Assembly (NCBI GenBank): GCA_035764505.1
Contig: DASTZC010000261.1
Location: 1-38,527 of the forward strand
From: Candidatus Polarisedimenticolia bacterium
GTDB taxonomy: Bacteria; Acidobacteriota; Polarisedimenticolia; Gp22-AA2; AA152
Direction: 5' to 3'
Length of the DNA: 38,527 bases
How positions within the stretch are numbered: position 1 is the first letter of the stretch; every line of letters begins with the position of its first letter. The notes beneath the pieces are model-generated. The model saw only the letters and a list, made by a program, of their open reading frames with translations, searched no databases and was not told the origin of the DNA. The translations under genes were made by a program, and so were the position numbers. Below are positions 9,559 through 38,527 of the stretch, piece by piece.

Positions 9559-12500
9559 TTAGCGGCGGGGGAGTCGGTCCGGACCTCTATTGGCTGGTCG
9601 ACGCTTTACCGAATCCCTAGGGATCCCCGGGGGGGGGGGGGTGGTGTGGTGCAGGGCCGCCAAGGCGGCGACCAGCTCTGCCGCACCGACGGGCTTCGTC
9701 AGGTGAGTCGTGTAACCCGCTTGCAGCGCGCGCTCGCAGGCCTCAGGCGTCCCGAACGCGGTGAGGGCGATCGCCGGAATCCGGCCGCCATTTCCGGGAG
9801 GGAGGGAGCGGATGGCGCGTATCAGCCAGTAACCATCCCGTCCCGGCATGGCGATGTCGCTTACCAGCACGTCAGGCCGCTGCTGTTGAATCGCCTCGAG
9901 AGCCTCGTCAGCGGACCTGACGGCGAGCACTTCCGCTCCATGCTCCTCCAGGAGACGCCGGACCGGCTCACGGGCTTCGAGCTCGTCGTCGACGATGAGC
10001 ACCATGGAGCCCGCGAGCGACGCAGGCGACAGCTCGGGGCCTTTCACCGGCGCAACGGCTGCCCGGGGTTCGGAGGCGAGCGGGAGCGAAACGGTGAAAG
10101 TCGCGCCTTTCCCCTTTCCAGGACTGCGCGCCGACACGCTTCCTCCGTGCAGCTCGACGAGCTGTTTGGTTACGGCCAGGCCGAGCCCCAGGCCGCCCTG
10201 GGAGCCACCCGACGTGGGCTCGCTTTGCCGGAAGCGCTCGAAGATGTGCGGCAGTGCCTCTGCGGTGATGCCTTGGCCGGAGTCGCTCACGATCGTCTCG
10301 GCCCGTGAGTCCACCTGGTGCAGATCGACCCTGATTTCACCGCCCGGGCCGGTGAATTTGATGGCGTTGGAGAGGAGATTGCCGAGCACCTGCTGGAGCC
10401 GGGAGGAATCGGCGAGAATGAAGAGTGGATCCGGGGCGGCCTGCAAATCGATGCGAATCTGCTTCTCGAGAGCGGCCGGCTGCGCCGTGTCGATCGCCGC
10501 CTTGACCTCGCCACGCAGGTCGACCCCGCGAAGGACCAGCGACAGTTTGCCGCCCGCGATCCGCTCGACGTCGAGCAGGTCGGAGATGAGCTGGGCCTGC
10601 ATCTTGCTGTTGCGGGCGATGACCTCCACGCCTCTCTTGCGGTCGTCGTCGCTGAGACCCGCTTGCTTGAGTACCTGGGCCCAGCCGGAGATGGCGTTCA
10701 GCGGCGTGCGGAGCTCGTGGGACAGCACGGCAATGAAGCGGCTCTTGTCGCGGTTGGCCACGTCGAGCTCCTCGGCGCGCCCGCGCAGCTCCCCTTCGAG
10801 GAGCTCGTGCTCCTTGTCGGCTCGTCGGCGCTCGCTGATATCCTCGAAGGCGAGGAGGATCGATTCCTTCGTTTCGCCCGGAACGACGAGCTTTCGGGAG
10901 CTGAGCTTCATGACCTTCCAGCCGATGTGCGGGAACTCGTGCTCGATGACGACGTCGTCGATGCCCGCTTCGGCCGAAAGGACACCCGTCAGGAGCTGGC
11001 GCAAGGCCGGCGTTTCCCACCCTCCGCCGGCCACCTCGTAGACGGGACGGCCGATGGTCTCCTCGCGGAGGCCGCGGAAAAACTCGTAGAACGAGCGATT
11101 GGCGCTTCGAACGCGCAGCTCGTCATCCAGGACGAGGACTGGCTCCGCCACCGTGTCGACGATGGTCTCCGCGTACTCGCGGGCACGGCGGAGCAGGTCC
11201 ACGTCCGTCATGGTCAGCACCGCGCCGTCGACCTTGCTCTCCAGGGACAGGTAGGGACGAAGGCGGAGGCAGTACCAGCGGCTGTCCCTGGCCTGGATTT
11301 CGCGCTCCTTGGGCGTGACCGTGTCGATGACCTCGGTGAGAAGCGATTCCAGGTCGGGAAGATCAATCCCCATCCTGATGTCGCTGATGGACCGTCCGAC
11401 ATCCGCGGGGATGATGCTCAGGAGGCTCGCCGCCATGGGGCTGAACCGCCGGATGCGCAGGTCGCGCCCGACGATGATGATGGGAACCTGGACGCTGTTG
11501 ATCAGGTTCGTGAGATCGCTGTTGACCTGGCCCAGCTCCAGGTTGCGGCTGTGCAGCTCTTCGTTGATGGTCGTCAGCTCCTCGTTGCTGGATTGGATCT
11601 CCTCCTTCGTGGTCTCGAGCTCCTCGTTGATGCTCTGCAGCTCCTCATTGGCGGATTGCGCCTCCTCGTTGGTCGATTGCAGCTCCTCCATCGCGGCGTC
11701 GTGCTGCTCGCACAGGGCCTCCAGGTAGTCACGCGTGCTCGCCAGCTCGTGCTCGAGACGGGAGGAGCTCGCCGCACGGGGCTCCTGCTTCGCCTTGCTG
11801 ACCGTCTTGTGCTTCCCGGCCGCGCCGCGTGCTTTCCCGGTCGGGGCGTTCTCGAACACGACGAGGAAGCCGCCGTCCTCCGGCGAGGTTCCCTTGAGCG
11901 GACATACCTTCAAGTCGACCTCGCGCGATTCGTCGTTGAAGCGGACCTGGACGCGATCCTCGCGGACCGCCTCGTTCGCCTTCCTCGCCCGGCGCAGCAA
12001 TGCCCGGAGAGGAACGAGCAGGCCCGGACGGGCCATCTTCAGGAGCGCGAAGCTCGCCTTCCCCTCAGAGGGCGCGAGGTAGGGCTCGATATTCCCCCGG
12101 AACTGGAGGATCTCGAAGTTCGCGTCGACGAGCACGGCGGCGGGGGCGAACCCCAGGAGCAGGCGGTCGGCCTCCTTGTGCAGATCGGGTGTGCCGAATG
12201 CGGAAGCGATCCGGGACGATGGCCCGATTCCTTCGGGCCGCCTGGCGTACCCGGTTCCGGCGCTCCTCGTGGGCAGGGTGGCCGGCGATCGTCCGGACCC
12301 CGGCTTCTTGACGAAGATCTTGTGCTTCGCGTCCTCGGCTCCGAACAGGCCGCGGTACTGGCCGACCGTCTCCGATGCCCCGAGGATGAGATATCCCGTC
12401 GGCTTGAGCGCGTAGTGCAGGATCGGGACGATCCGCTGCTGCAGCGCCGGCTCCAGGTAGATGAGCAGGTTCCTGCAGCTGACCAGGTCCATCCGCGAGA

Positions 12501-13806
12501 ACGGCGGATCGGTCGCCGCGTTGTGGCGGGAGAAGACGCACATCTCGCGGATCGACTTGTTGATGCGGAAGCTTCCATCGACTTCCACGAAGAAGCGCCG
12601 CAAGCGCTCCTGCGACACGTTCTCCAGGCGCTCCTTGGGGTAGACGCCGGCGCGCGCCCGGCCGATCCCGGCGAGGTTCACATCGGTGGCGAAGATCTGC
12701 GCCGGGGCATGGCTTTTCGAGGACTCCATGCTCTCCGACAGGATCATGGCGAGCGAGTAGGCTTCCTCGCCCGTGGAGCAGCCCAGGACCCAGACCCGCA
12801 GCGGGTCCTGGCGGGGGCGGTTCTCGAGGAGCGCCGGGATGACCTTCGCTTTCAAGGCCTCGAACATCCCGGGGTCCCTGAAGAAGCCCGTCACGTTGAT
12901 CAGGATGTCCTGGCAGAGAGAATCGATCTCCGCGGGGTTGTCCCGGAGGAACTTCGCATAGTCCGCCAGCCCGTCTTTCTTGAGGAGAATCATGCGCCGC
13001 GTAATGCGGCGGACGAGGGTGCTCGCCTTGTACAGCGAGAAATCGACGTCGCAGCCGGAGCTCAGGACCTGCAGGATAGGCGCCAGGTCCGCCTTGCCGA
13101 GCGCGGATCCGGGCGCCTCTCCGATGACCGGGACGTCCGGCGCCACGAAGGGATGGGTGGCAATCCGCGTTAGCTCGGCCGCGATTCCCTCCGGAGGGAG
13201 AACGAAGTCCACGGACCCGGAAGCGACGGCGCTCTGCGGCATACCGTGATATTGAGCCGTGTCGTCCTGGGCGAAGGTGATGCCGCCGCCGGCCTTGATC
13301 TCCTCGATCCCGACGGTGCCGTCGGTGGCCGTGCCGGAGAGGATCACGCCGATGGCCATGTGCCCCTGATCCTCCGCGAGCGACCGGAGAAACCGATCGA
13401 TCGGGTGACGCGGCTGCGCGTCGCGGGCGAACAGCTTGAGGTGTCCCCCGGCGATGGTCATGTTCCGGTTCGGGGGAATCACGTAAACATGGTTGGGCTC
13501 GATCTCCGGCTCGTCGGCGACCTCGCATACTGGCATGGATGCGGCGCGCGAAAGAATCCCGGCCAGGGCGCTCTCATGCGAGGGAGCCAGGTGCTGCACG
13601 AGGACGAAGGCCATGCCGGTATCGTCGGGGAGGGCGCGCAGCAGCTGGGTGAAGGCCTCCAGCCCGCCTGCCGAGGCCCCGACGCCGACGACAGGGAATC
13701 TGGGTTTCACCTCCGGCGCCGCGTCCTCCTCGACGCCAGCGTTGGCCGCGGGCTCTTTCCCTCGCGGGTTGAGCGAGCGGAGCTTCTTATTATTTTTGTT
13801 GCGCAT
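9559..13806 (-). CDS. CheB-CheR-PAS hybrid histidine kinase with C-terminal receiver
   Basis: A protein of about 1415 residues fusing chemotaxis-type enzymes to a hybrid kinase. In order: CheB methylesterase (residues about 36-215; triad Ser45 in GVGASAGG, His72 in VQHLAPSH, Asp162 in GTATDG); CheR methyltransferase (about 240-500; INVTGFFRD and SAM-binding LGCSTGEEAYSLAM); an ELQSTNEEAQSANEELQ-type coiled coil; PAS-like domains; HisKA with His1030 in SHELRTPLNA; HATPase_c (NLLSNAIKFT, GGLGLGLAV); and a receiver with Asp1317 (LVSDIAMPG). All catalytic residues are present. No CheA, CheW or receptor gene is nearby, so it probably signals outside flagellar chemotaxis. The open frame reaches 14034, but the ATG at 13806, with GGGAAG 8 nt upstream, fits the family. 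The tail after the receiver crosses a 13-C homopolymer. Confidence 0.92.
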   Translation of the reverse strand: MRNKNNKKLRSLNPRGKEPAANAGVEEDAAPEVKPRFPVVGVGASAGGLEAFTQLLRALPDDTGMAFVLVQHLAPSHESALAGILSRAASMPVCEVADEPEIEPNHVYVIPPNRNMTIAGGHLKLFARDAQPRHPIDRFLRSLAEDQGHMAIGVILSGTATDGTVGIEEIKAGGGITFAQDDTAQYHGMPQSAVASGSVDFVLPPEGIAAELTRIATHPFVAPDVPVIGEAPGSALGKADLAPILQVLSSGCDVDFSLYKASTLVRRITRRMILLKKDGLADYAKFLRDNPAEIDSLCQDILINVTGFFRDPGMFEALKAKVIPALLENRPRQDPLRVWVLGCSTGEEAYSLAMILSESMESSKSHAPAQIFATDVNLAGIGRARAGVYPKERLENVSQERLRRFFVEVDGSFRINKSIREMCVFSRHNAATDPPFSRMDLVSCRNLLIYLEPALQQRIVPILHYALKPTGYLILGASETVGQYRGLFGAEDAKHKIFVKKPGSGRSPATLPTRSAGTGYARRPEGIGPSSRIASAFGTPDLHKEADRLLLGFAPAAVLVDANFEILQFRGNIEPYLAPSEGKASFALLKMARPGLLVPLRALLRRARKANEAVREDRVQVRFNDESREVDLKVCPLKGTSPEDGGFLVVFENAPTGKARGAAGKHKTVSKAKQEPRAASSSRLEHELASTRDYLEALCEQHDAAMEELQSTNEEAQSANEELQSINEELETTKEEIQSSNEELTTINEELHSRNLELGQVNSDLTNLINSVQVPIIIVGRDLRIRRFSPMAASLLSIIPADVGRSISDIRMGIDLPDLESLLTEVIDTVTPKEREIQARDSRWYCLRLRPYLSLESKVDGAVLTMTDVDLLRRAREYAETIVDTVAEPVLVLDDELRVRSANRSFYEFFRGLREETIGRPVYEVAGGGWETPALRQLLTGVLSAEAGIDDVVIEHEFPHIGWKVMKLSSRKLVVPGETKESILLAFEDISERRRADKEHELLEGELRGRAEELDVANRDKSRFIAVLSHELRTPLNAISGWAQVLKQAGLSDDDRKRGVEVIARNSKMQAQLISDLLDVERIAGGKLSLVLRGVDLRGEVKAAIDTAQPAALEKQIRIDLQAAPDPLFILADSSRLQQVLGNLLSNAIKFTGPGGEIRVDLHQVDSRAETIVSDSGQGITAEALPHIFERFRQSEPTSGGSQGGLGLGLAVTKQLVELHGGSVSARSPGKGKGATFTVSLPLASEPRAAVAPVKGPELSPASLAGSMVLIVDDELEAREPVRRLLEEHGAEVLAVRSADEALEAIQQQRPDVLVSDIAMPGRDGYWLIRAIRSLPPGNGGRIPAIALTAFGTPEACERALQAGYTTHLTKPVGAAELVAALAALHHTTPPPPGIPRDSVKRRPANRGPDRLPRR
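9629..9641. repeat. 13-G/C homopolymer in the 3' end of the hybrid kinase gene
   Basis: Thirteen consecutive G on the plus strand (C in the coding sense), next to four C, encode Pro-rich TTPPPPG just after the receiver domain. One base more would end the protein at a nearby TAG, and one base fewer at a nearby TAA. The reading therefore depends on the exact count. It may be slippage-prone or a sequencing artefact. Confidence 0.7.
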
Positions 13807-14326
13807 GGGGGATGCTTCCCGGTCGGCCCGCGCTCTTCCTGGCTCCGATGTTTTTTTGTCTCGATGCTGAACCATGGACCGCCACACGAAGTAGTCAGGC
13901 GGCACTTTGCACGGCGGCCACGATCGCTCTGGCGCCGTGCGAGCGGCCATGACCGGAAGCGAACGATAACCCAATTGTCTGACGTACGTCGCTAGTCTAT
14001 ACCACTCGCGCGCGCCTTTAGCGCACGCGTACAACCTTTTCTCCGCGGGGCCGACTTGGTCGGCGGGCCGAGCATGGCCTCGCTCGACCTCGCTGAAGCG
14101 ATACCGTAATTCACGTAGATCATTAATTCACGCGATGCATTGAGTCCCTGACGCGCACGGAATATGGCACTTGGCTCGGCTACTGGTACCTCTCCCGCGG
14201 GAAGAAGAATCCGTGCGGCGCAGCCACCTACGGCTCCGCCCAGAGATGCCGGCATTGCATCCTGCCCTCGAGCCTTATAGGAAAGAAGTGACGGGATGCT
14301 CGCCGAATTGGCGGAGATTGGACACC
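13807..14326. other. Intergenic region upstream of the hybrid kinase
   Basis: About 520 bp between the CHAT gene's stop and the chosen kinase start. The open frame through its left half (13807-14034) looks non-coding in composition. It contains a perfect 10-bp palindrome GACGTACGTC at 13981-13990, just past a possible reverse-strand -10 TATAGA (14001-13996) with a poor -35. It also holds a hairpin GCCGAC-TTG-GTCGGC at 14050-14064 without a T tract, and a direct repeat TAATTCACG at 14107-14115 and 14124-14132, 17 bp apart. These are candidate regulatory sites of the kinase gene; none matches a factor I recognise. Confidence 0.4.
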
Positions 14327-17260
14327 CTACCGCCAGTTCCCGGCGGCGACGAAGGCGGCCCAGTAGAAAGGATGGGTGCTGCGTCCTTGCGCCCGGCGTG
14401 CCTGAAGAAGCCCGAGGCTCGCTGCGCGGATCGCCTCGGGGGTGGAGCGCCCTTCGAGGCGCTGCTCGTAGAGGCGGTGCATCCACTCGCGCGTCGATGA
14501 ATCCTCGACTTTCCACAGGCTCATGATCAAGGTCTGCGCACCCGCCAATTCGAAGGCGCGTCGCAGCCCCATGACCCCTTCCCCGTCCTGGACCTTGCCC
14601 AGTCCCGTCTCGCATCCCGACAGAACGGCCCATTCCACGTGCGACAGATCCAGAACGGCGATCTCTTCGGCGGTCAGGATTCCGTCGTCGTCGGCGGGGT
14701 CGGTCGTGCGCCGTCGGTTGGCGCCGGCGAATGCGAGACCGGAGAGCAGCATCGGGCTGTCTTCCTGCGAAGACCTGGCCTTCGCGGAGTCGTTGGGGAC
14801 TTTGGGCGGCTGACACCGATCCTGCAGGAAGAAGCCGTGCGTCGCCACGTGGACCACCTGGAAATCGGGGGCCATCACCTTGAACGCGGTTTCGGTCGCC
14901 TGCCGTCCGCTGAGGGACAGGCTGGGTTTCGCGGCAGACGGCTGAGCGCCCGAGGCAGGCCAGAGGGATCCAATCTCGGAGATCTCGCGCGCCGCGTCCG
15001 GAAGGATCCCGAACCGCATCGATCCGAAGTCCTGGCATTCGGGAGGAGCGCTACGGAAGACGGTACGGCCCTTCGGGGCACCGGGCACCCCGCTGCCCGT
15101 CTCCAGCTGCGCGGTTTCGAGGCGGAGCTCGTCGGCGGGCGCATCGAAATCCGGTCCTCCCAGCGCCAGGAACTTTCTGTGGGCGCCCGAGGGAGGCGCT
15201 TGCCGGAGCAGGTCCCTTTCGGTCGACAGGTAATGGATAAGCGGACCGCCCTCCACCAGGTAACCGCCGTTCTCGACCGGGAGACTATAGAAGCTGACGA
15301 GGTGAATCGCCCCGTCGGGAACGATGAACACCTGGCGCGCACCGCGCAGGCCTCCTGACAGAGGATCCCAGATCAGCTTGCGCAGGGATCGGGAGATCTC
15401 CCGGTAGCGCTCTTCCGAGCGATCGGACAGATAGGAGCGGGGAGGTCCCAGCGCTTCCTTCCAGCGGCGTATCGAGGTGTCGATCCGATCGGCCGGGCCC
15501 AGGGGGATGGCGATCGGGTCGCGGCGGCCGGCGGGCAAGACCAGCGCCAGGTAGCTCGGCACGGGTGCCGGGGCCTTCGGCTCTCCTGCCGCGGGCAACG
15601 GCAGCAACGAGAATCGGAAGAAGGCGACCAATGCCGATCCGGAAGGCAGGGCCGCCCGCACTTCGTGCAAGCCCGCGCGGCTGGTCGCCATCCGATCGCG
15701 GAACTCGGCGCTCCTTTCCGCGAGCGTCCGCTCCACTTGCTCCTTTCCCGCCACGAGGCGCGTGATGACCGCCCGGTGCTCGGTGGGGGTCGAAGATCCC
15801 GGGCCCCGGACCGTCGCGGCCGAGAGGCGCTCGCTGGCTCGCGCGAGATCGGCCTTCAGGGCTTCCACCTCGGGGCCCGCGCCCGCCAGGAAGCGATGAC
15901 GAAAGGCCATCTCGTCCAGGACGACCGACCGGGAGCCGATCATCTGGTTCCAGACGGCTTCGATGCCTGCCGCGCTTCGCTCCTTTCCCAGATCGAGAAT
16001 CGAAAGGGCGATCTGCGTCCCGAGAGCCTGGACCTCCTGATAGGCCAGAGCTTCCCGTTCCGACAGGACGCGGGAGAGATCCAGGAAGTTGTTTCGGCCA
16101 ATCGACTCCGCTCGGAGCGCATGGGTGGCCGCAGCCTCGTAATCGCCCGCCGCGTACTCGACTCGCGCCATCCCGCTCAGCGTCGATACCAGGGCGCGAT
16201 GATTGGGTCCGAAGGATCTCTCCTGAATCCTCAGGATTTGTTCCCATGTCTCGCGAGCCCGGGCCGGGTTGGGAGAGTGGGACAGGACTTCCGCGAGACC
16301 GTTGAGGTAGAAGGGAGTTCTCCATCCGTCGGGCCCGGTGGATTTCTCGCCGATCTGCATGGCCCGCCGGGCAGTGGCCTCCGCCGCCTCGTGCTCCCCC
16401 AGCCCTGATTGGGCGAGCGCCAGTCCGACGAGGCCCGTCGCGAAGGTCGAATCCTCGGGGCCCAGCTCGCGCTCCCAGATCCGGACCGCCCGCTCGGAAA
16501 GCGCTTTCGCGTGCTGGAAATCTCCCAAGGACCGGTAGATATCCGCCAGCCCATCCAGGCTGGTGCCGACCCAATGGTGCTCGGGGCCAAAGAGGCGCTC
16601 GCGGATCCTCAACGACCTTTTCGCAGCTTCGAGCGCCCGGGGATAATCGCGGATCGTGCGGTACGCCTGGCCCAGAGAAAGAAGGGCTCCGGCGAGCTCC
16701 GCCGACGGGGGGCCGGGTCGGGCCTCCCAGAGCGCCACCAGCCGCCGGGCGTAGAGCAGGACATCAGCGTCGCGTCCCAGACGTCTCATATCGAACATCA
16801 TCTCGGACAGGGTATCCCCGAGATCCGGGTGGACAGGCCCGAGCACCTTCTCCTGGATGGCCAGGCTGCGACCGGCAAGCTCGGTGCCCTCGATGAATCT
16901 TCCTTCGTAGGACAACAGGTTCGCTCTCTTGATGATGATCCTCGCGTAGCACAGGCTTTCCGGCCCGCAGGCGGCTTCCGCCTTCCGCGCCACGCCATCG
17001 AGGAGAAAGTCGTCCTCCTCGCTCAGGGTGCGCCCGCCCTCGTAGGTGCAATAAAGCAGAACCTGCAGAATTCTCGCCGCGTCCCGACTCGGGTCGTTGC
17101 CCGTGAATTCGAGCTCCGCGAGCGCTTCCATCGCGCCCGCATGCGCTTCGGCATAGGACCTTTGCTTGGCGAGGGTTTCGAGCTCATCGACGGAGGGGGC
17201 TGCGGCCGGGAGGGAGCTCCAGGGCAGCGCGAAAAGCGGCACGAGAAAGAGAGCCTTCAA
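14327..17260 (-). CDS. Secreted TPR-CHAT protease-like protein
   Basis: From the TTG at 17260 this is 977 residues. A signal peptide (KALFLVPLFALPWSSLPAAA) is followed by a long TPR superhelix (about 30-420) with repeats of the kinesin-light-chain type, such as AYRTIRDYPRALEAAKRSL and HPDLGDTL. The C-terminal CHAT domain (about 640-977) is a caspase-fold cysteine peptidase domain with His808 in VATHGFF and Cys883 in VLSGCETGLG, so the catalytic dyad is intact. The open frame could instead start with TTG at 17299, overlapping the STAS stop by 17 nt; neither start has a strong ribosome-binding site. The STAS gene directly upstream implies co-transcription. Substrate and activator are unknown. 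TPR-CHAT proteins such as Csx29 are activated proteases, but no CRISPR genes are here. Confidence 0.85.
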   Translation of the reverse strand: MKALFLVPLFALPWSSLPAAAPSVDELETLAKQRSYAEAHAGAMEALAELEFTGNDPSRDAARILQVLLYCTYEGGRTLSEEDDFLLDGVARKAEAACGPESLCYARIIIKRANLLSYEGRFIEGTELAGRSLAIQEKVLGPVHPDLGDTLSEMMFDMRRLGRDADVLLYARRLVALWEARPGPPSAELAGALLSLGQAYRTIRDYPRALEAAKRSLRIRERLFGPEHHWVGTSLDGLADIYRSLGDFQHAKALSERAVRIWERELGPEDSTFATGLVGLALAQSGLGEHEAAEATARRAMQIGEKSTGPDGWRTPFYLNGLAEVLSHSPNPARARETWEQILRIQERSFGPNHRALVSTLSGMARVEYAAGDYEAAATHALRAESIGRNNFLDLSRVLSEREALAYQEVQALGTQIALSILDLGKERSAAGIEAVWNQMIGSRSVVLDEMAFRHRFLAGAGPEVEALKADLARASERLSAATVRGPGSSTPTEHRAVITRLVAGKEQVERTLAERSAEFRDRMATSRAGLHEVRAALPSGSALVAFFRFSLLPLPAAGEPKAPAPVPSYLALVLPAGRRDPIAIPLGPADRIDTSIRRWKEALGPPRSYLSDRSEERYREISRSLRKLIWDPLSGGLRGARQVFIVPDGAIHLVSFYSLPVENGGYLVEGGPLIHYLSTERDLLRQAPPSGAHRKFLALGGPDFDAPADELRLETAQLETGSGVPGAPKGRTVFRSAPPECQDFGSMRFGILPDAAREISEIGSLWPASGAQPSAAKPSLSLSGRQATETAFKVMAPDFQVVHVATHGFFLQDRCQPPKVPNDSAKARSSQEDSPMLLSGLAFAGANRRRTTDPADDDGILTAEEIAVLDLSHVEWAVLSGCETGLGKVQDGEGVMGLRRAFELAGAQTLIMSLWKVEDSSTREWMHRLYEQRLEGRSTPEAIRAASLGLLQARRAQGRSTHPFYWAAFVAAGNWR

Positions 17261-17282
17261 CTTGGATCCGGGGGAGGGTATC

Positions 17283-17660
17283 TTAGCGGGTCCGTTCAAC
17301 GCCCAGCGCCTTCATGGCGCTGGGCTCGCTGTCGTAGACCTTGAGGATGTGGCTGAGGTGCACCAGCTCGAGCGCGGCGCGGACCTTGGAGGTGGGGGCC
17401 AGCAGCGCGATGTCGCCTCCTTTGTCGACGGCGGCCCATTTCGAGGCGACCAGCTCGCCGATGCCGCCTGAGTCAATCGCTACCGTACGCCTGAGGTCGA
17501 TAAGGATCTGGCGCAGGTCTGCCTTGAGCGCCTCGTGCGTGGCCTCTCGCAGCTCCGGCGCGCCCTTTTCGAGGTAGAGGTTTCCAATGACTTCGATCAC
17601 GGCGATTTTGCCGGTCACCCTCATGTTGATCGATGTCAGACGATTCTCGCCGGCTCCCAC
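17283..17660 (-). CDS. STAS-domain anti-sigma-factor antagonist (RsbV/SpoIIAA-like)
   Basis: This 125-residue single-domain STAS protein has a beta strand opening KIAVIEVIGNLYL, then the conserved phospho-acceptor loop AIDSGGIGEL with Ser64, then GGDIALLAPTSKVRAALEL. Family members switch partners: when unphosphorylated they bind an RsbW-type kinase/anti-sigma factor and free the sigma factor or other target. No RsbW kinase or PP2C phosphatase gene is in the window, so its partners are elsewhere. The start is GTG at 17660; an ATG at 17624 is the alternative and would remove 12 residues. It is followed directly by the CHAT gene on the same strand. Confidence in the family is high. Confidence 0.88.
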   Translation of the reverse strand: MGAGENRLTSINMRVTGKIAVIEVIGNLYLEKGAPELREATHEALKADLRQILIDLRRTVAIDSGGIGELVASKWAAVDKGGDIALLAPTSKVRAALELVHLSHILKVYDSEPSAMKALGVERTR

Positions 17661-19366: not shown

Positions 19367-20692
19367 TCAACTCTTGACGTAGGCCGGCTGCGGGGCCGGC
19401 GAGACGGTTGAATCATTATCGTCGAGGCGGCGCAGGGGCGGATAGAACAGCGCCGCCAGCGCCGCCACGATGCTGAGGCTCCCCGCCACGATCAGGATCA
19501 GGGCAATGCCGCGTCCCGGTCCGGTGCCGATCAGCGGTCCGAGCCATCCGGCGAGACGGCCGCCCGGCGCCATGGCCGGCTCGGCCAGACGATCGGCCAG
19601 CGGCCCGGCGGCCAGCGACGCCAGCGGCATCGCCGACATGGCGATGGTGGTCCGCACCGCGAAGACCCTTCCCTGCAGATCGGCAGGGACGACGCGCTGC
19701 CAGATCACCTGGCTCGATCCCGCCGTGACCGGCATGAAGAAAAGGAAAAGGAAGGCCGCCGCGGCCAGCAGCGGCACGGAAGCCGTCACCCCGGCGGCGA
19801 TGACTGCCAATCCCCCCAGGCAGGAAAAGAGGATCACTCCGAGCGCGGAACGGCGCGGCCCTCCCCACAAGCTCATCAGCGCGCTGCCACCGATCATCCC
19901 CATCCCGCCGATCGCCAGGATGGTCCCTAGCGCCGCGGGGGTGGAGAAGCTCAGCACCAGGGGGGTGAAGACCACCGTGGCCAGCTCGGTGAAGAAATTC
20001 ACCACGGCGAACATGAGCAGCAGCGCCAGCAGCCCCGCGTGAGCGAAGATGTACCTCCAGCCGAACGGCAGGTCGTGCCGGTACGAGGTGCGCTCGGCGC
20101 CCGGCGGCGCCGCGGATGGAATCGCCGCGGCGAGGATCGTGGCGGCCGAGAAGAGAAAGGTGGCGACATCCAGAAGGGCCACGCCGAACAGGCCAATCCA
20201 GGTGATCAAGGCGCCGGCCAGCAGCGGCGCGAGCACCTGCGGCACCGACATCGCAAGCTGGGTCAAGCCGCTGGCCCGCCCGAGCTGATCGCGCGGCACA
20301 AGCAAGGTGACGGTGGCCGAATAAGCGGGCCACTGAACCACGGTGGCGGCGGAAGTGATGACGACGATGGCGCAAGCTCCCGCGAGCGACAGCGCATCGA
20401 GCCGGACCAGTATCGCCACCCCTGCAGAAGTCGCGGCGCCGATCAGGTCGCAGCCAGCCAGGAGGCGCTTGCGATTCCAGCGATCGATCAGGGGACCGGC
20501 CAGCGGCAGGATCAGCAGCGGCGGCAAGGCGGCGCAGAAGGTCACCAGGGAGTACTGCGTGGTCGAGGCGGTGCGCTGGAAAATCCAGACTCCGAGAGAG
20601 AAGGCGGTCAGCCCCGATCCGAGCATCGAGACGAGCTGGCCGGTCCATATCAGAAGGAAGGCGCGCACTCCGGGGCCGCGGAAAGAAGACAT
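19367..20692 (-). CDS. MFS exporter (EntS/MFS_3-type), probable product efflux
   Basis: This 441-residue protein has about twelve hydrophobic segments and the family's conserved loops: FLLIWTGQLVSMLGSGLTAFSLGVW at the start, GPLIDRWNRKRLLAGCDLIG between helices 2 and 3, and GPLADRLAEPAM in the second half. EntS-type MFS proteins export siderophores and other peptides by proton antiport. The stop of the LarA homologue is 3 nt upstream, and the ribosome-binding GGATGAG lies within that junction. Position in an NRPS operon supports export of the peptide. Direction and substrate are inferred. Confidence 0.88.
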   Translation of the reverse strand: MSSFRGPGVRAFLLIWTGQLVSMLGSGLTAFSLGVWIFQRTASTTQYSLVTFCAALPPLLILPLAGPLIDRWNRKRLLAGCDLIGAATSAGVAILVRLDALSLAGACAIVVITSAATVVQWPAYSATVTLLVPRDQLGRASGLTQLAMSVPQVLAPLLAGALITWIGLFGVALLDVATFLFSAATILAAAIPSAAPPGAERTSYRHDLPFGWRYIFAHAGLLALLLMFAVVNFFTELATVVFTPLVLSFSTPAALGTILAIGGMGMIGGSALMSLWGGPRRSALGVILFSCLGGLAVIAAGVTASVPLLAAAAFLFLFFMPVTAGSSQVIWQRVVPADLQGRVFAVRTTIAMSAMPLASLAAGPLADRLAEPAMAPGGRLAGWLGPLIGTGPGRGIALILIVAGSLSIVAALAALFYPPLRRLDDNDSTVSPAPQPAYVKS

Positions 20693-20695
20693 CGC

Positions 20696-22006
20696 TCATC
20701 CCGCCGCCCGCCGCGCCAGCGGCTCGATCAGGACCGGAAGGGTCCCCAACCCGTGGGGGATGAGATAGCCGGGTCCCGGATTCGACGCGGCCAGCGCTTC
20801 CGCAAGTGATGCGTGCGGGATCATCCCCATCCGTCGCACCGTCGCCGGGTCGAGGGCCGAGACGAGGCGCACCTTGTAGCGCTCCGACTTCCAGCGGATG
20901 CCCCACGCGGTCTGCCCATGGACCTGGTAGCGGCTCACCAGCTTCTGCGCTGTCGCGCGCGCGCCGCCCGGCACGAACCAATCGAGGAAGTCGGGACGGC
21001 CGAGTCCGTCGGCGCACTCCGCCAGCAGCACCAGGTCGCCGCCGTCCTTCAGGACGAGGCGTGCATGCTCGAGCGCCTTGTGCGACTGGATCATGTTGAG
21101 GTCGCGCGGCGAGCCGCCGCAGCTCACGACCACGAGGTTGCGACGCCGGGCGACCTGCACGGAATGCTCCTGCAGATATTCGGCGCAGCCGCGCCGGTGC
21201 GCGGCCCGCCAGTTGCCGGCATACAGCCCCACGATCCGGTTGGCTCCGCCGAGCACCGTGTTGACCAGGAAGCTGGGACCGACCAGGCCGCAAGCTTCCT
21301 CCATATCCTCGCTGACCGGATTCCCCTCCAGCCGTCCCGATTCGATCCCTTCGGCTTTCGACAGGCTGGTCCGATCGAAAGCGAGCAGGTGGTTGGCCTG
21401 GATGGAGCGGTCGGAGCCGCAGCCTGGCAACACTCCCTTGCGACCGCCGCTGAAGCCGGCGACGTAGTGGAAGCCGATGGCGCCCACCACGAACACCCGG
21501 TCGGCCTTCAGGAGGCGGCGGTCGACTTCCACGGGAGTGCCGCGCGAGGTGACGCCTACCGGTGCGTTCTCGACGGCGTCATAGGCATCGTGGATGCGGA
21601 CGGCGACGCGGCGGGCCGGCTCGTATCCGACGATGCGGGTGATCTCCTCCGGCGTGGGGGGGCGATGCGTCCCGGCTCCCACCAGGAACTCGATCTGTCC
21701 GTCGGGTACGCCAAAATTCGCCAGCCGCCGCAAAAGGAGCGCGGCGACACGATCGGATCCGGAGGCCCGCGTTGCGTCCGGGACCACGATGCAGACGCTG
21801 TGCGAGGGGGAGACGATCTCGCCGAGCGGCGGCGAGCCGATGGGAGATTCGAGCTTCGCTAGCAGCTCGTCGTCGCCCAGCTCGGGGGGATCGGATCCGA
21901 TCGGGTCGACGACTTCGAAACGCCCGGGATCGTAGGTGAAATCGACCCGCCCGCTTCCGTATCCGAGCGCCAGGCGCCCCGGTGATTCGCGCTTGCCGTC
22001 AGTCAT
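20696..22006 (-). CDS. LarA-family nickel-pincer 2-hydroxyacid racemase homologue
   Basis: LarA uses a nickel-pincer nucleotide, bound covalently to Lys, to interconvert D- and L-lactate by hydride transfer; homologues act on other 2-hydroxyacids. This 436-residue protein has PDATRAS, AGTHRPPTPEE, GFHYVAGFSGGRKGVLPGC and IQANH. His114, His180, Lys190 and His206 line up, at a constant offset of 6, with His108, His174, Lys184 and His200 of Lactobacillus plantarum LarA, as I recall that numbering. All cofactor and catalytic residues therefore appear intact. The ATG at 22006 overlaps the aminotransferase stop by 8 nt, indicating translational coupling; the frame upstream to 22276 is that gene read in another phase. 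larB, larC and larE, which make the cofactor, are not in the window. The substrate is unknown; the neighbours suggest an aryl 2-hydroxyacid. Confidence 0.88.
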   Translation of the reverse strand: MTDGKRESPGRLALGYGSGRVDFTYDPGRFEVVDPIGSDPPELGDDELLAKLESPIGSPPLGEIVSPSHSVCIVVPDATRASGSDRVAALLLRRLANFGVPDGQIEFLVGAGTHRPPTPEEITRIVGYEPARRVAVRIHDAYDAVENAPVGVTSRGTPVEVDRRLLKADRVFVVGAIGFHYVAGFSGGRKGVLPGCGSDRSIQANHLLAFDRTSLSKAEGIESGRLEGNPVSEDMEEACGLVGPSFLVNTVLGGANRIVGLYAGNWRAAHRRGCAEYLQEHSVQVARRRNLVVVSCGGSPRDLNMIQSHKALEHARLVLKDGGDLVLLAECADGLGRPDFLDWFVPGGARATAQKLVSRYQVHGQTAWGIRWKSERYKVRLVSALDPATVRRMGMIPHASLAEALAASNPGPGYLIPHGLGTLPVLIEPLARRAAG

Positions 22007-23222
22007 GCGGCACCCCCGAGGCGGCCGGATGGAGCGATTCGAGGGCCCGGGCGATCCGTGCCACCCCCTCCTGCAGGACTTCGGGCGGGCTGTAGCTGAA
22101 GCTGAGCCGCAGGGACGAGGTCGCGGGGGCCGCGTCGCCAGCAGCGAAGGCGCCGCCCGGAAGGAAAGCCACCTTCTCGCGCTGCAGCGCCGCCTCGAAG
22201 AGGACCCAGGCATCGATGCCGCGGGGGAGATCGACCCAGGTGAAGAAGCCGGCCCGCGGAACCGACCAGCGCGCATCCTTGGGAAATGAGCGGTTCAGAG
22301 CAGCCAGCAGCGCGTCGCGGCGGCGCGCGTATTCGGTCCGCAGGCGCTCCAGGTGCTCCTCGAATCCGCCCGAGGCGACGAAGGCGGCGACGGCGCGCTG
22401 CCCTAAAGTGGCCGTGTCGATGTCGCTCGATTCCTTGAGCGAAGCGAGCGGTCCGATGAAGCGCTCCGGCACCACCACCCAGCCGGTGCGCAAGCCTGGC
22501 GCCAGCGTCTTGGAGAACGATCCCAGGTAGAGCACCCATTCCGAATCGAAAGCCCGCAGCGCCGGAAGCTCCTCCCGGTCGTAGGTCAGCATGCCATAGG
22601 CGTCGTCTTCAAGAATCGGCATGCGATGATCGCGCGCCAGATCCACGAGCCGGCGCCGCGCCTCGCGTGGCAGCGAAGCACCGGTGGGATTGTGGCCGTC
22701 CGACATCGCGTACAGAAGCGTCGGGCGCAATCCGCCGGCAAGCGCGCGCTCCAGCGCGTCGACGTCGATTCCGGTCGCGGGCGAGGTCGGGACCGTGACG
22801 ATGTGCGGCTCGTGCGGTGATACCGCCTGCTGGAAGCCGGTGTAGCAGCTCTCCTCCAGGACGATCGTCGCGCCGGGATCGAGGAGCAGCCGTGCCAGGA
22901 GCGACATTCCCTGCTGCGCCCCGGCCGTGAGAAAGACCTGCTCCGGCTCGCAGGCGACACCCCGGCGGGCCATGAGCCGGGCGACGAAAGCGCGCAGCTC
23001 CGATGAGGAGGGGCCGTACTGCAGGGCGCGCGGATCGGCGCGCAGGACGCGGCCGATGGCCTCGTCCACCGCCGCCGTCGGGAAGAGATCCGCGGCCGGC
23101 AGGCCGAGCGCCAGGGACAGGACCTCCGGTCGCGCCGTCGCCACCAGCAGGTCCTGCAGCGCCGAGCGCCGCAGCGCCAGCGTCCATCTCGCGAGAGGGG
23201 GGCCTGGCGCGCGCGCCGTCAT
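21999..23222 (-). CDS. Fold-type-I PLP aminotransferase, HpgT-like by context
   Basis: This 407-residue class I/II aminotransferase resembles the 2-aminoadipate/MocR catalytic-domain group. Residues seen are HNPTG with Asn178, ILEDDAYG with Asp207, and the PLP-lysine Lys238 in GSFSKTLAPGLRTGW. It has no N-terminal DNA-binding domain. GAAGGAGC precedes the ATG at 23222. Beside a 4-hydroxymandelate-synthase-like enzyme in an NRPS operon, the best functional guess is transamination of 4-hydroxybenzoylformate to 4-hydroxyphenylglycine, as HpgT does in glycopeptide clusters. Formation of 4-hydroxyphenylpyruvate from tyrosine (HpgT also catalyses this reverse half-reaction) or an aminoadipate-type reaction are alternatives. 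The family is certain; the substrate is inferred. Confidence 0.88.
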   Translation of the reverse strand: MTARAPGPPLARWTLALRRSALQDLLVATARPEVLSLALGLPAADLFPTAAVDEAIGRVLRADPRALQYGPSSSELRAFVARLMARRGVACEPEQVFLTAGAQQGMSLLARLLLDPGATIVLEESCYTGFQQAVSPHEPHIVTVPTSPATGIDVDALERALAGGLRPTLLYAMSDGHNPTGASLPREARRRLVDLARDHRMPILEDDAYGMLTYDREELPALRAFDSEWVLYLGSFSKTLAPGLRTGWVVVPERFIGPLASLKESSDIDTATLGQRAVAAFVASGGFEEHLERLRTEYARRRDALLAALNRSFPKDARWSVPRAGFFTWVDLPRGIDAWVLFEAALQREKVAFLPGGAFAAGDAAPATSSLRLSFSYSPPEVLQEGVARIARALESLHPAASGVPHD

Positions 23223-23258
23223 GAAGCTCCTTCTTTAAACGATCTCATGCGCCCTCTC

Positions 23259-24326
23259 TCACAGGTTGCCGCGCGCCGCCTGCTCGCGCTCGACCGCCTC
23301 GAACAGCGCCCGGACGTTGCCGGCGCCGAAGCCGCGGGCTCCCTTGCGCTGCACCACCTCGAGGAAGCCGGTCGGCCTGCCGGTCACCGGCTTGCTGAAG
23401 ACCTGCAGGAGGTAGCCCCAGCGGTCGCGGTCGACCAGGACGTTCAGCTCCCGTAGCTCCTTGAGGTCCTCCTCGATGTCGCCGACGCGCGCCGGCAGCG
23501 CGTCGTAGTAAGTGCCGGGGGTCTGCAGGAAATCGACGCCCCCTTCGCGCAGGACCCGCACCGTGGCGGCGATGTCGGAGGACAGCATCGCCAGGTGCTG
23601 GGCGCCGGCGCCGTGGTGGTAGTCGAGGTACTCGTCGATCTGGGACTTGGAGCGGCCGGGCGCCGGCTCCATGATCGGAAACTTGATCGTGCCGTTCTCG
23701 CTCTCCATCACCTTGGAATTCATGGCGCTGCGCTCGGTCACGATGTCCTCGTGGTGCGCTTCGTGGAAGCCGAACACGCCGGCGTAGTAATCGATCCACT
23801 GCGCGAGCGTCCCCGCCTCCACGCACACCGCCACGTGGTCGATGGCCGCGAGGCTGGCCGTCTTGCCCGCCCAGCGCGATTTCCACGGGCGGAAGCCCGG
23901 CAGGAAGGGGCCGGTGTAGCTGTCGCGCTGCACCAGGGAATGGATCGTGTCGCCGAACGACTTGATCGCCGCCCGGATGACGCGGCCCGACTCGTCGGTG
24001 GCCACGTGCGGCTCGGCCACCGGCGTCGCGCCGCGCTCGACGCAGTGGCGGAAAGCGCGCGCCGCGTCGTCCACCGCCAGCGCCACGTCGCGGATGCCGT
24101 CGCCGTGCAGGCGTGTGTGATCGGAGATGGGGCCGTTGGGCGCCAGCGAGTTGGTGAACACCAGCCGGATGTCTCCCTGCTCGACGGCAAAGGAGGTGCG
24201 GTCGCGCAGACCCGTCTCCAACCCCCCCTCTGCCAGGGGGCGGAAGCCCAGCGCGCGCGTGAAAAAGTAGGCCGAGGCGAAAGCGTTGCCGACATAGAAC
24301 TCGACGTGATCGATCCCACGAAGCAT
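23259..24326 (-). CDS. 4-Hydroxymandelate synthase-like dioxygenase (HPPD family)
   Basis: Non-haem iron enzyme of 355 residues with two VOC-type domains. HPPD and HmaS both use 4-hydroxyphenylpyruvate and O2: HPPD makes homogentisate, HmaS makes 4-hydroxymandelate. The iron ligands are His164 (AIDHVAVC), His244 (AQHLAMLS) and Glu323 (GFLEVVQR). Their spacing of 80 and 79 residues equals that which I recall for Amycolatopsis HmaS (161/241/320). At two pocket positions where HPPD has Asn (PINEP) and Phe (GKGNFKALFEA), this protein has Met219 (PIMEP) and Val338 (GAGNVRALFEA); HmaS has aliphatic residues there. The rest of the C-terminus is otherwise HPPD-like. GGGAGG precedes ATG 24326. The gene starts 20 nt after the NRPS stop. 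HmaS activity is likelier than HPPD but not proven. Confidence 0.85.
   Translation of the reverse strand: MLRGIDHVEFYVGNAFASAYFFTRALGFRPLAEGGLETGLRDRTSFAVEQGDIRLVFTNSLAPNGPISDHTRLHGDGIRDVALAVDDAARAFRHCVERGATPVAEPHVATDESGRVIRAAIKSFGDTIHSLVQRDSYTGPFLPGFRPWKSRWAGKTASLAAIDHVAVCVEAGTLAQWIDYYAGVFGFHEAHHEDIVTERSAMNSKVMESENGTIKFPIMEPAPGRSKSQIDEYLDYHHGAGAQHLAMLSSDIAATVRVLREGGVDFLQTPGTYYDALPARVGDIEEDLKELRELNVLVDRDRWGYLLQVFSKPVTGRPTGFLEVVQRKGARGFGAGNVRALFEAVEREQAARGNL

Positions 24327-24346: not shown

Positions 24347-38527
<14,181 letters not shown>

Follow-up and report, generated by a model that had tools for sequence, protein, structure and literature searches.

A LarA-type nickel-pincer enzyme encoded in an NRPS operon of Candidatus Polarisedimenticolia and its possible place in a 4-hydroxyphenylglycine-type route without Hmo

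The 38,527-bp contig DASTZC010000261.1 of a Candidatus Polarisedimenticolia bacterium, analyzed over its whole length and referred to as the window, encodes a homolog of LarA, the 2-hydroxyacid racemase that depends on the nickel-pincer nucleotide (NPN) cofactor. Its gene lies in one operon with those for a nonribosomal peptide synthetase (NRPS), a dioxygenase resembling the hydroxymandelate synthase HmaS, an aminotransferase (AT) and an exporter of the major facilitator superfamily (MFS). Other bacteria use the H2O2-producing flavin oxidase Hmo in making 4-hydroxyphenylglycine (Hpg). We propose, as a reading that is quite possible though just short of probable, that the LarA homolog serves a Hpg-type route without Hmo by acting on 4-hydroxymandelate, most likely racemizing it for a D-specific dehydrogenase encoded away from the operon. 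The arrangement around LarA is not due to chance, since the gene order recurs in full in a genome from another family of the same class (G018) and, for AT-LarA-MFS, in contig VBOY01000107 (L057) of a Candidatus Eisenbacteria genome (G396).

The operon occupies the minus strand and is composed of the following genes:

24347..38527, minus strand: 3′ part of the NRPS, with domains assigned by Pfam, open at the contig end
23259..24326, minus strand: Fe(II) dioxygenase of the 4-hydroxyphenylpyruvate dioxygenase (HPPD)/HmaS type, 355 aa, placed by alignment residues and tree
21999..23222, minus strand: pyridoxal phosphate-dependent AT of the LysN/multiple-substrate AT group, 407 aa, placed by Pfam and identity to LysN
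20696..22006, minus strand: LarA homolog (Lar_N and LarA_C), 436 aa, placed by Pfam and residue alignment
19367..20692, minus strand: MFS exporter, assigned by Pfam, the final conserved gene of the operon, kept in G018 and L057

The NRPS and dioxygenase genes are 20 nt apart, the dioxygenase and AT genes 36 nt, the start of LarA overlaps the AT stop by 8 nt (ATGACTGA) and 3 nt separate LarA from the MFS gene, so that NRPS through MFS can be read as one operon. The dioxygenase gene starts at 24326, and an open reading frame reaching 22276 is a frame extension of LarA, which itself spans 20696-22006. A preliminary description of this DNA had noticed the order AT-LarA-exporter with the overlapping LarA start, and all genes and coordinates are borne out. 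Contig C7 of G018 keeps the full NRPS-dioxygenase-AT-LarA-MFS synteny, with identities to the window of 72% for the dioxygenase, 68% for the AT, 65% for LarA, 64% for the MFS exporter and 58% for the thioesterase (TE) domain of the NRPS. VBOY01000107 begins within the AT gene and continues with LarA and MFS (66, 72, and 70% identity, respectively). LarA homologs as such are widespread, occurring in 66 of 149 relatives, but close homologs are few: matches at E ≤ 1e-90 occur in 2 of the 41 genomes of the class, and beyond L057 a search through single genomes of each species returned only LarAs of 30–39% identity without the dioxygenase-AT-LarA trio.

Pfam recognizes both domains of the LarA homolog, Lar_N with 176.8 bits (cut-off 23.3) and LarA_C with 38.6 bits (cut-off 25). 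In alignments to LarA_Lp, Mar2 (6d6z) and LarA_Ip (9eia), the NPN-binding residues R80, K190, and H206 (R75, K184, and H200 of LarA_Lp) and the catalytic residues D77, H114, H180, and K310 (D72, H108, H174, and K298) are complete, in agreement with the preliminary description. Three of these positions, all read from the alignment, are located as follows:

21665..21667, minus strand: catalytic His114 (His108 of LarA_Lp), preceded by the cluster-specific Thr113
21467..21469, minus strand: catalytic His180 (His174 of LarA_Lp)
21437..21439, minus strand: cofactor-binding Lys190 (Lys184 of LarA_Lp), followed by the cluster-specific Gly191, Cys196, and Gly197

With both domains, all these residues and the genes larB, larC, and larE in the genome, the protein is, judged from its sequence, a member of the LarA superfamily. 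It stands apart from other members through its location in an NRPS cluster and through substitutions that adjoin the cofactor lysine and precede the first catalytic histidine. Indeed, T113, G191, C196, and G197 are unique to the LarAs of the three clusters when compared to their 18 nearest homologs, and these three LarAs form a single clade with a support of 100/100. The substitutions, including a new cysteine (Cys196), thus flank the first catalytic histidine and the cofactor lysine. The window LarA is assigned to no characterized LarA subgroup. All three cluster LarAs score best against the NCBIfam model LarAH10, related to hydrophobic racemases (phenyllactate, 4-hydroxyphenyllactate), but their scores of 336–341 bits (336.8 for the window) stay under the cut-off of 540, and the window protein has Gln365 instead of Phe or Tyr at the Trp358 position.

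The genome of the window was searched family by family. It encodes LarB (293.8 bits), LarE (281.2 bits) and LarC, the latter split into two pieces between C60 and C113, so the cofactor genes that had been left to be checked are all present. The Lar_N search returned a single gene, the window LarA, which is therefore the only visible client of the NPN cofactor in this genome. No oxidase of the Hmo family (FMN_dh) is found in the three cluster-bearing draft assemblies, i.e., the window's genome, G018 and G396: the single FMN_dh match in the window's genome is an IMP dehydrogenase, as is that in G396, and the matches in G018 are an IMP dehydrogenase and a type 2 isopentenyl diphosphate isomerase. 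The earlier remark that no oxidase is visible thus extends from the window to three genomes, and an Hmo gene on an unseen contig was rejected for these drafts on the same matches.

The dioxygenase looks HmaS-like by its active-site residues, as had been suggested before. It retains the iron ligands His187, His270, and Glu349 (numbering of Streptomyces avermitilis HPPD), and carries Met at 245, Val at 364 and Met at 228, with the residues near 216 lost. Both complete cluster dioxygenases have Met for the Asn245 and Val for the Phe364 of HPPD. At 245, 364, and 228 the HmaS of A. orientalis, that of S. coelicolor and the HmaS-like structure 7yvv have Ile, Ile, and Met with the same gap (the HmaS reference sequence is identical to PDB 2r5v across all 357 residues), and the aligned HPPDs of the phylum have Asn, Phe, and Leu without a gap (28 of 28). 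The equivalent exchange in Arabidopsis HPPD, N282A, lowers the efficiency about 160-fold, and Phe424 and Asn423 matter for substrate binding (PMC6750108). In an unrooted tree the two cluster dioxygenases fall between the HmaS and HPPD groups, so that the predicted HmaS-type activity may have an independent or early origin.

We infer every substrate and every step of the following route. 4-Hydroxyphenylpyruvate would be supplied by the AT and/or primary metabolism and converted by the HmaS-like dioxygenase to (S)-4-hydroxymandelate. LarA would take on this 4-hydroxymandelate, standing in for Hmo. According to known LarA chemistry it would invert the S to the R form and feed a D-specific 2-hydroxyacid dehydrogenase encoded elsewhere, for which a gene resembling GlcD/D-2-hydroxyglutarate dehydrogenase on contig C41 of the window's genome is a candidate; a weaker GlcD-like gene is present in G018. 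The AT would then turn 4-hydroxybenzoylformate into Hpg, to be loaded by the NRPS, and the MFS protein would export the product. A racemase combined with a D-specific dehydrogenase is preferred over net oxidation because COG0277 dehydrogenases adjoin LarA genes in five groups (PMC7583248), an AT-LarA-GlcD set exists in locus L051 and the C41 gene is available. 4-Hydroxyphenyllactate is among the aromatic 2-hydroxy acids that LarA homologs racemize (PMC11770544). The preliminary suggestion of a Hpg-type route without Hmo has gained from the absence of the Hmo family and the presence of larB, larC, and larE; the part that has not firmed up is the substrate of LarA, for which 2-hydroxyglutarate is a real alternative.

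The set in L051 (6422-10292) has an AT-LarA pair with an adjacent GlcD-type FAD dehydrogenase and is a probable 2-hydroxyacid catabolic unit. AT-LarA pairs are also present in L050 and L052 of the same phylum. Similar to the window, an AT gene immediately precedes LarA in these loci, and the LarAs fall in the same wider clade, but their ATs belong to an unrelated subgroup (25% identity), GlcD is next door in L051, and there is no NRPS or dioxygenase match.

Several points weigh against the proposed route. In the literature consulted for this analysis, no LarA is described to act on mandelates. The specificity positions of the window LarA (Y181, V182, Q365, T366; Y, F, Q, T in G018 and L057) are nearer to the pattern Y, F, H/Q, T of 2-hydroxyglutarate racemases than to that of hydrophobic racemases, which tend to F or Y at the third position (PMC11770544). 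The same four residues are common to the wider LarA clade, in other contexts too, and how this stretch aligns varies with the method, a pairwise alignment to LarA_Lp yielding W and G instead. The AT is unsupported as an HpgT ortholog: it shares 40% identity with Thermus thermophilus LysN and 33 and 29% with two ATs encoded next to actinobacterial HmaS genes, a pair whose mutual identity is 50%; the predicted AT could still have the same function as HpgT. DIFHLGLLCK, the canonical Hpg code of adenylation (A) domains, is absent from every A domain read across the three clusters, where some modules are unread, and among those read no module stands out as the user of Hpg. A luciferase-like monooxygenase and a heme-oxygenase-like enzyme are encoded upstream, between the polyketide synthase (PKS) and the NRPS, in all three clusters (contig C82 of the window's genome, C161 of G396, i.e., L151, and C92 of G018), with identities of 72–73 and 68–86% across clusters, respectively, and either of them could in principle perform the oxidation. 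Finally, an FAD-oxidase_C search of G396 gave no match in an assembly of only about 3 Mb, weakening the combination of racemase and GlcD in that genome.

The NRPS part has the order C(partial)-A-MT-PCP-C-A-PCP-C-A-PCP-C-A-PCP-TE according to Pfam (C, condensation; MT, methyltransferase; PCP, peptidyl carrier protein). Its A-domain codes, taken from a MAFFT alignment, are DAWFLGNVV (a Leu code, in the module with the methyltransferase), DAEFIAQVA, DPRNFLLRA and the terminal DGEHFGAIE before the TE. The Asp235 of A domains binds the α-amino group. It is kept in every A domain read across the three clusters; these domains are thus of the amino-acid type and comprise no hydroxy-acid A domain, so that the NRPS substrate is likelier an amino acid than hydroxymandelate. 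The His278 and Gly301 of the Hpg code recur in two domains, DIWHFGFIS and the terminal DGEHFGAIE. The assignment of DIWHFGFIS as a clear Hpg domain was withdrawn, its nearest relatives in the set having Gln/Glu-like codes, and a search of a Nonomuraea NRPS stretch for A domains to serve as Hpg standards yielded none. The terminal A domains next to the TE, 61% identical between the window and G018 with different codes, are the first candidates for the product of the dioxygenase-AT-LarA trio. The third A domain (window 29590 region) has a counterpart, DPRNFVLRA, near 46795 of G396 contig C161. Both codes are similar to the aminoadipate-type code known from Lys2 reductases, an unusual kind for NRPSs; no such domain is seen in the G018 contigs read.

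The conservation of Asp235 bears directly on an idea of the preliminary description that has lost ground, namely that LarA racemizes hydroxymandelate for incorporation. In this reading the (R) acid formed from (S)-4-hydroxymandelate would be built in as a hydroxy acid, in a depsipeptide or ester, with the AT only making 4-hydroxyphenylpyruvate from tyrosine. Such a pathway would make an oxidase unnecessary and agrees with the retention of both catalytic histidines for racemization and with an AT nearer to LysN and the multiple-substrate ATs than to HpgT-type ATs, yet the hydroxy acid would have to enter through an unread module or independently of A domains, and we hold this reading to be unlikely. 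Alternatively, LarA might act as a nickel transhydrogenase, in which the hydride of hydroxymandelate passes to NPN, 4-hydroxybenzoylformate leaves for the AT, and the cofactor is re-oxidized by another 2-oxo acid, e.g., 2-oxoglutarate yielding 2-hydroxyglutarate. Both the 2-oxoacid and the reduced NPN do occur as intermediates of LarA (PMC11770544; PMC12611868), the pocket signature is like that of 2-hydroxyglutarate racemases, cluster-specific changes flank the cofactor lysine, and the Hmo family is missing from the three genomes. However, productive release of the oxoacid by any LarA is absent from the literature consulted, both histidines of the racemase mechanism are kept, and the changes on the cofactor side have no established effect, which makes this version rather improbable.

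The pocket signature, complete in G018 and L057 and present at three of four positions in the window, would also fit a LarA whose substrate is another acid. The simplest candidate is 2-hydroxyglutarate, or else a relative of adipate, and the gene would owe its position among the operon genes to another building block or to the handling of AT co-products. The similarity of the AT to LysN, a 2-aminoadipate transaminase, and the aminoadipate-like DPRNFLLRA code point the same way, but the trio is kept in G018 where the contigs read show no DPR-type domain, the four residues extend across the wider clade, and the HmaS-like dioxygenase is left unexplained; we regard this reading as rather improbable, too. 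A chance pairing of an ordinary HPPD with LarA as an unconnected, incidental neighbor appears highly improbable. The dioxygenase does pass the NCBIfam HPPD equivalog cut-off (410.6 versus 277 bits), with S. avermitilis HPPD as its best PDB match, yet the loss of both Asn245 and Phe364 argues against a plain HPPD, and the gene order is kept across families at 64–72% identity.

The HmaS-Hmo-HpgT pathway of glycopeptide and calcium-dependent antibiotic clusters shares with the window an NRPS adjoined by a dioxygenase of the HmaS type and an aminotransferase of class I/II. In contrast, the window operon contains LarA with no Hmo-family gene in the three genomes, its dioxygenase falls outside the actinobacterial HmaS clade in the unrooted tree and its AT is not an HpgT ortholog. 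The operon is thus not a member of the canonical Hpg pathway. On a plasmid of Streptomyces sp. NBC_00887 (L107), HmaS adjoins an AT and an NRPS, and the annotation shows no FMN oxidase within 8 kb; the A-domain codes there, DAMLMGAVC and DMLVVGAVC, differ from the canonical Hpg code.

The open-access literature yielded no paper that mentions nickel-pincer enzymes or LarA together with biosynthetic gene clusters, which is in line, for that literature, with the earlier remark that no NRPS pathway with a nickel-pincer enzyme was known. If LarA handles hydroxymandelate, nickel-pincer chemistry would gain a part in the biosynthesis of natural products, of which the literature searched offers no example, and the question whether the NPN cofactor can do more than racemize could be put to a concrete enzyme for which a candidate substrate is defined. 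In that case there would also be an additional Hpg route free of an H2O2-producing flavin oxidase, of practical interest for making phenylglycines. Should the transhydrogenase version hold, it would be the first nickel-pincer transhydrogenase, recruited into secondary metabolism to carry out the redox step on the way to a phenylglycine.

The window is an entire contig that terminates within the NRPS, and the other half of the cluster is therefore not visible in it. It is probably the 3′ end of an NRPS-PKS cluster for a lipopeptide with its own precursor operon. Condensation-domain matches and synteny with contig C161 of G396 tie contigs C211, C8, and C82 of the same genome to the window; the four contigs would form one cluster, and the other three would supply most of its other half. 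C211 encodes a starter AMP-ligase-PCP-C-A protein with an adjoining phosphopantetheinyl transferase, the ligase being putatively similar to fatty acyl-AMP ligases based on its DIP2-like AMP domain. C8 carries NRPS modules and shares a split PKS with C82 (residues 1–187 on C8, 189 on on C82), and C82 encodes, besides the monooxygenase and the heme-oxygenase-like enzyme, the C-A(DIWHFGFIS) module. The C-domain ends of C82 (9957-10871) and the window (38527-37613) overlap by 915 bp at only 77% identity, which rules out that C82 directly abuts the window and indicates either an extra module between them, as in G018, or an origin of C82 from a second, related cluster.

An Rfam scan of the window gave no matches. 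The other annotated genes of the window, encoding RecA, a Mg-chelatase-like (ComM-type) ATPase, two-component systems and a CHAT-TPR protein, look unrelated to the operon. The gene at 9559-14034 on the minus strand encodes a large sensor protein of the hybrid type that combines CheB, CheR, PAS, histidine kinase and receiver domains, and the CHAT-TPR protein (14327-17299, minus strand) is immediately downstream on the exporter side of the cluster.

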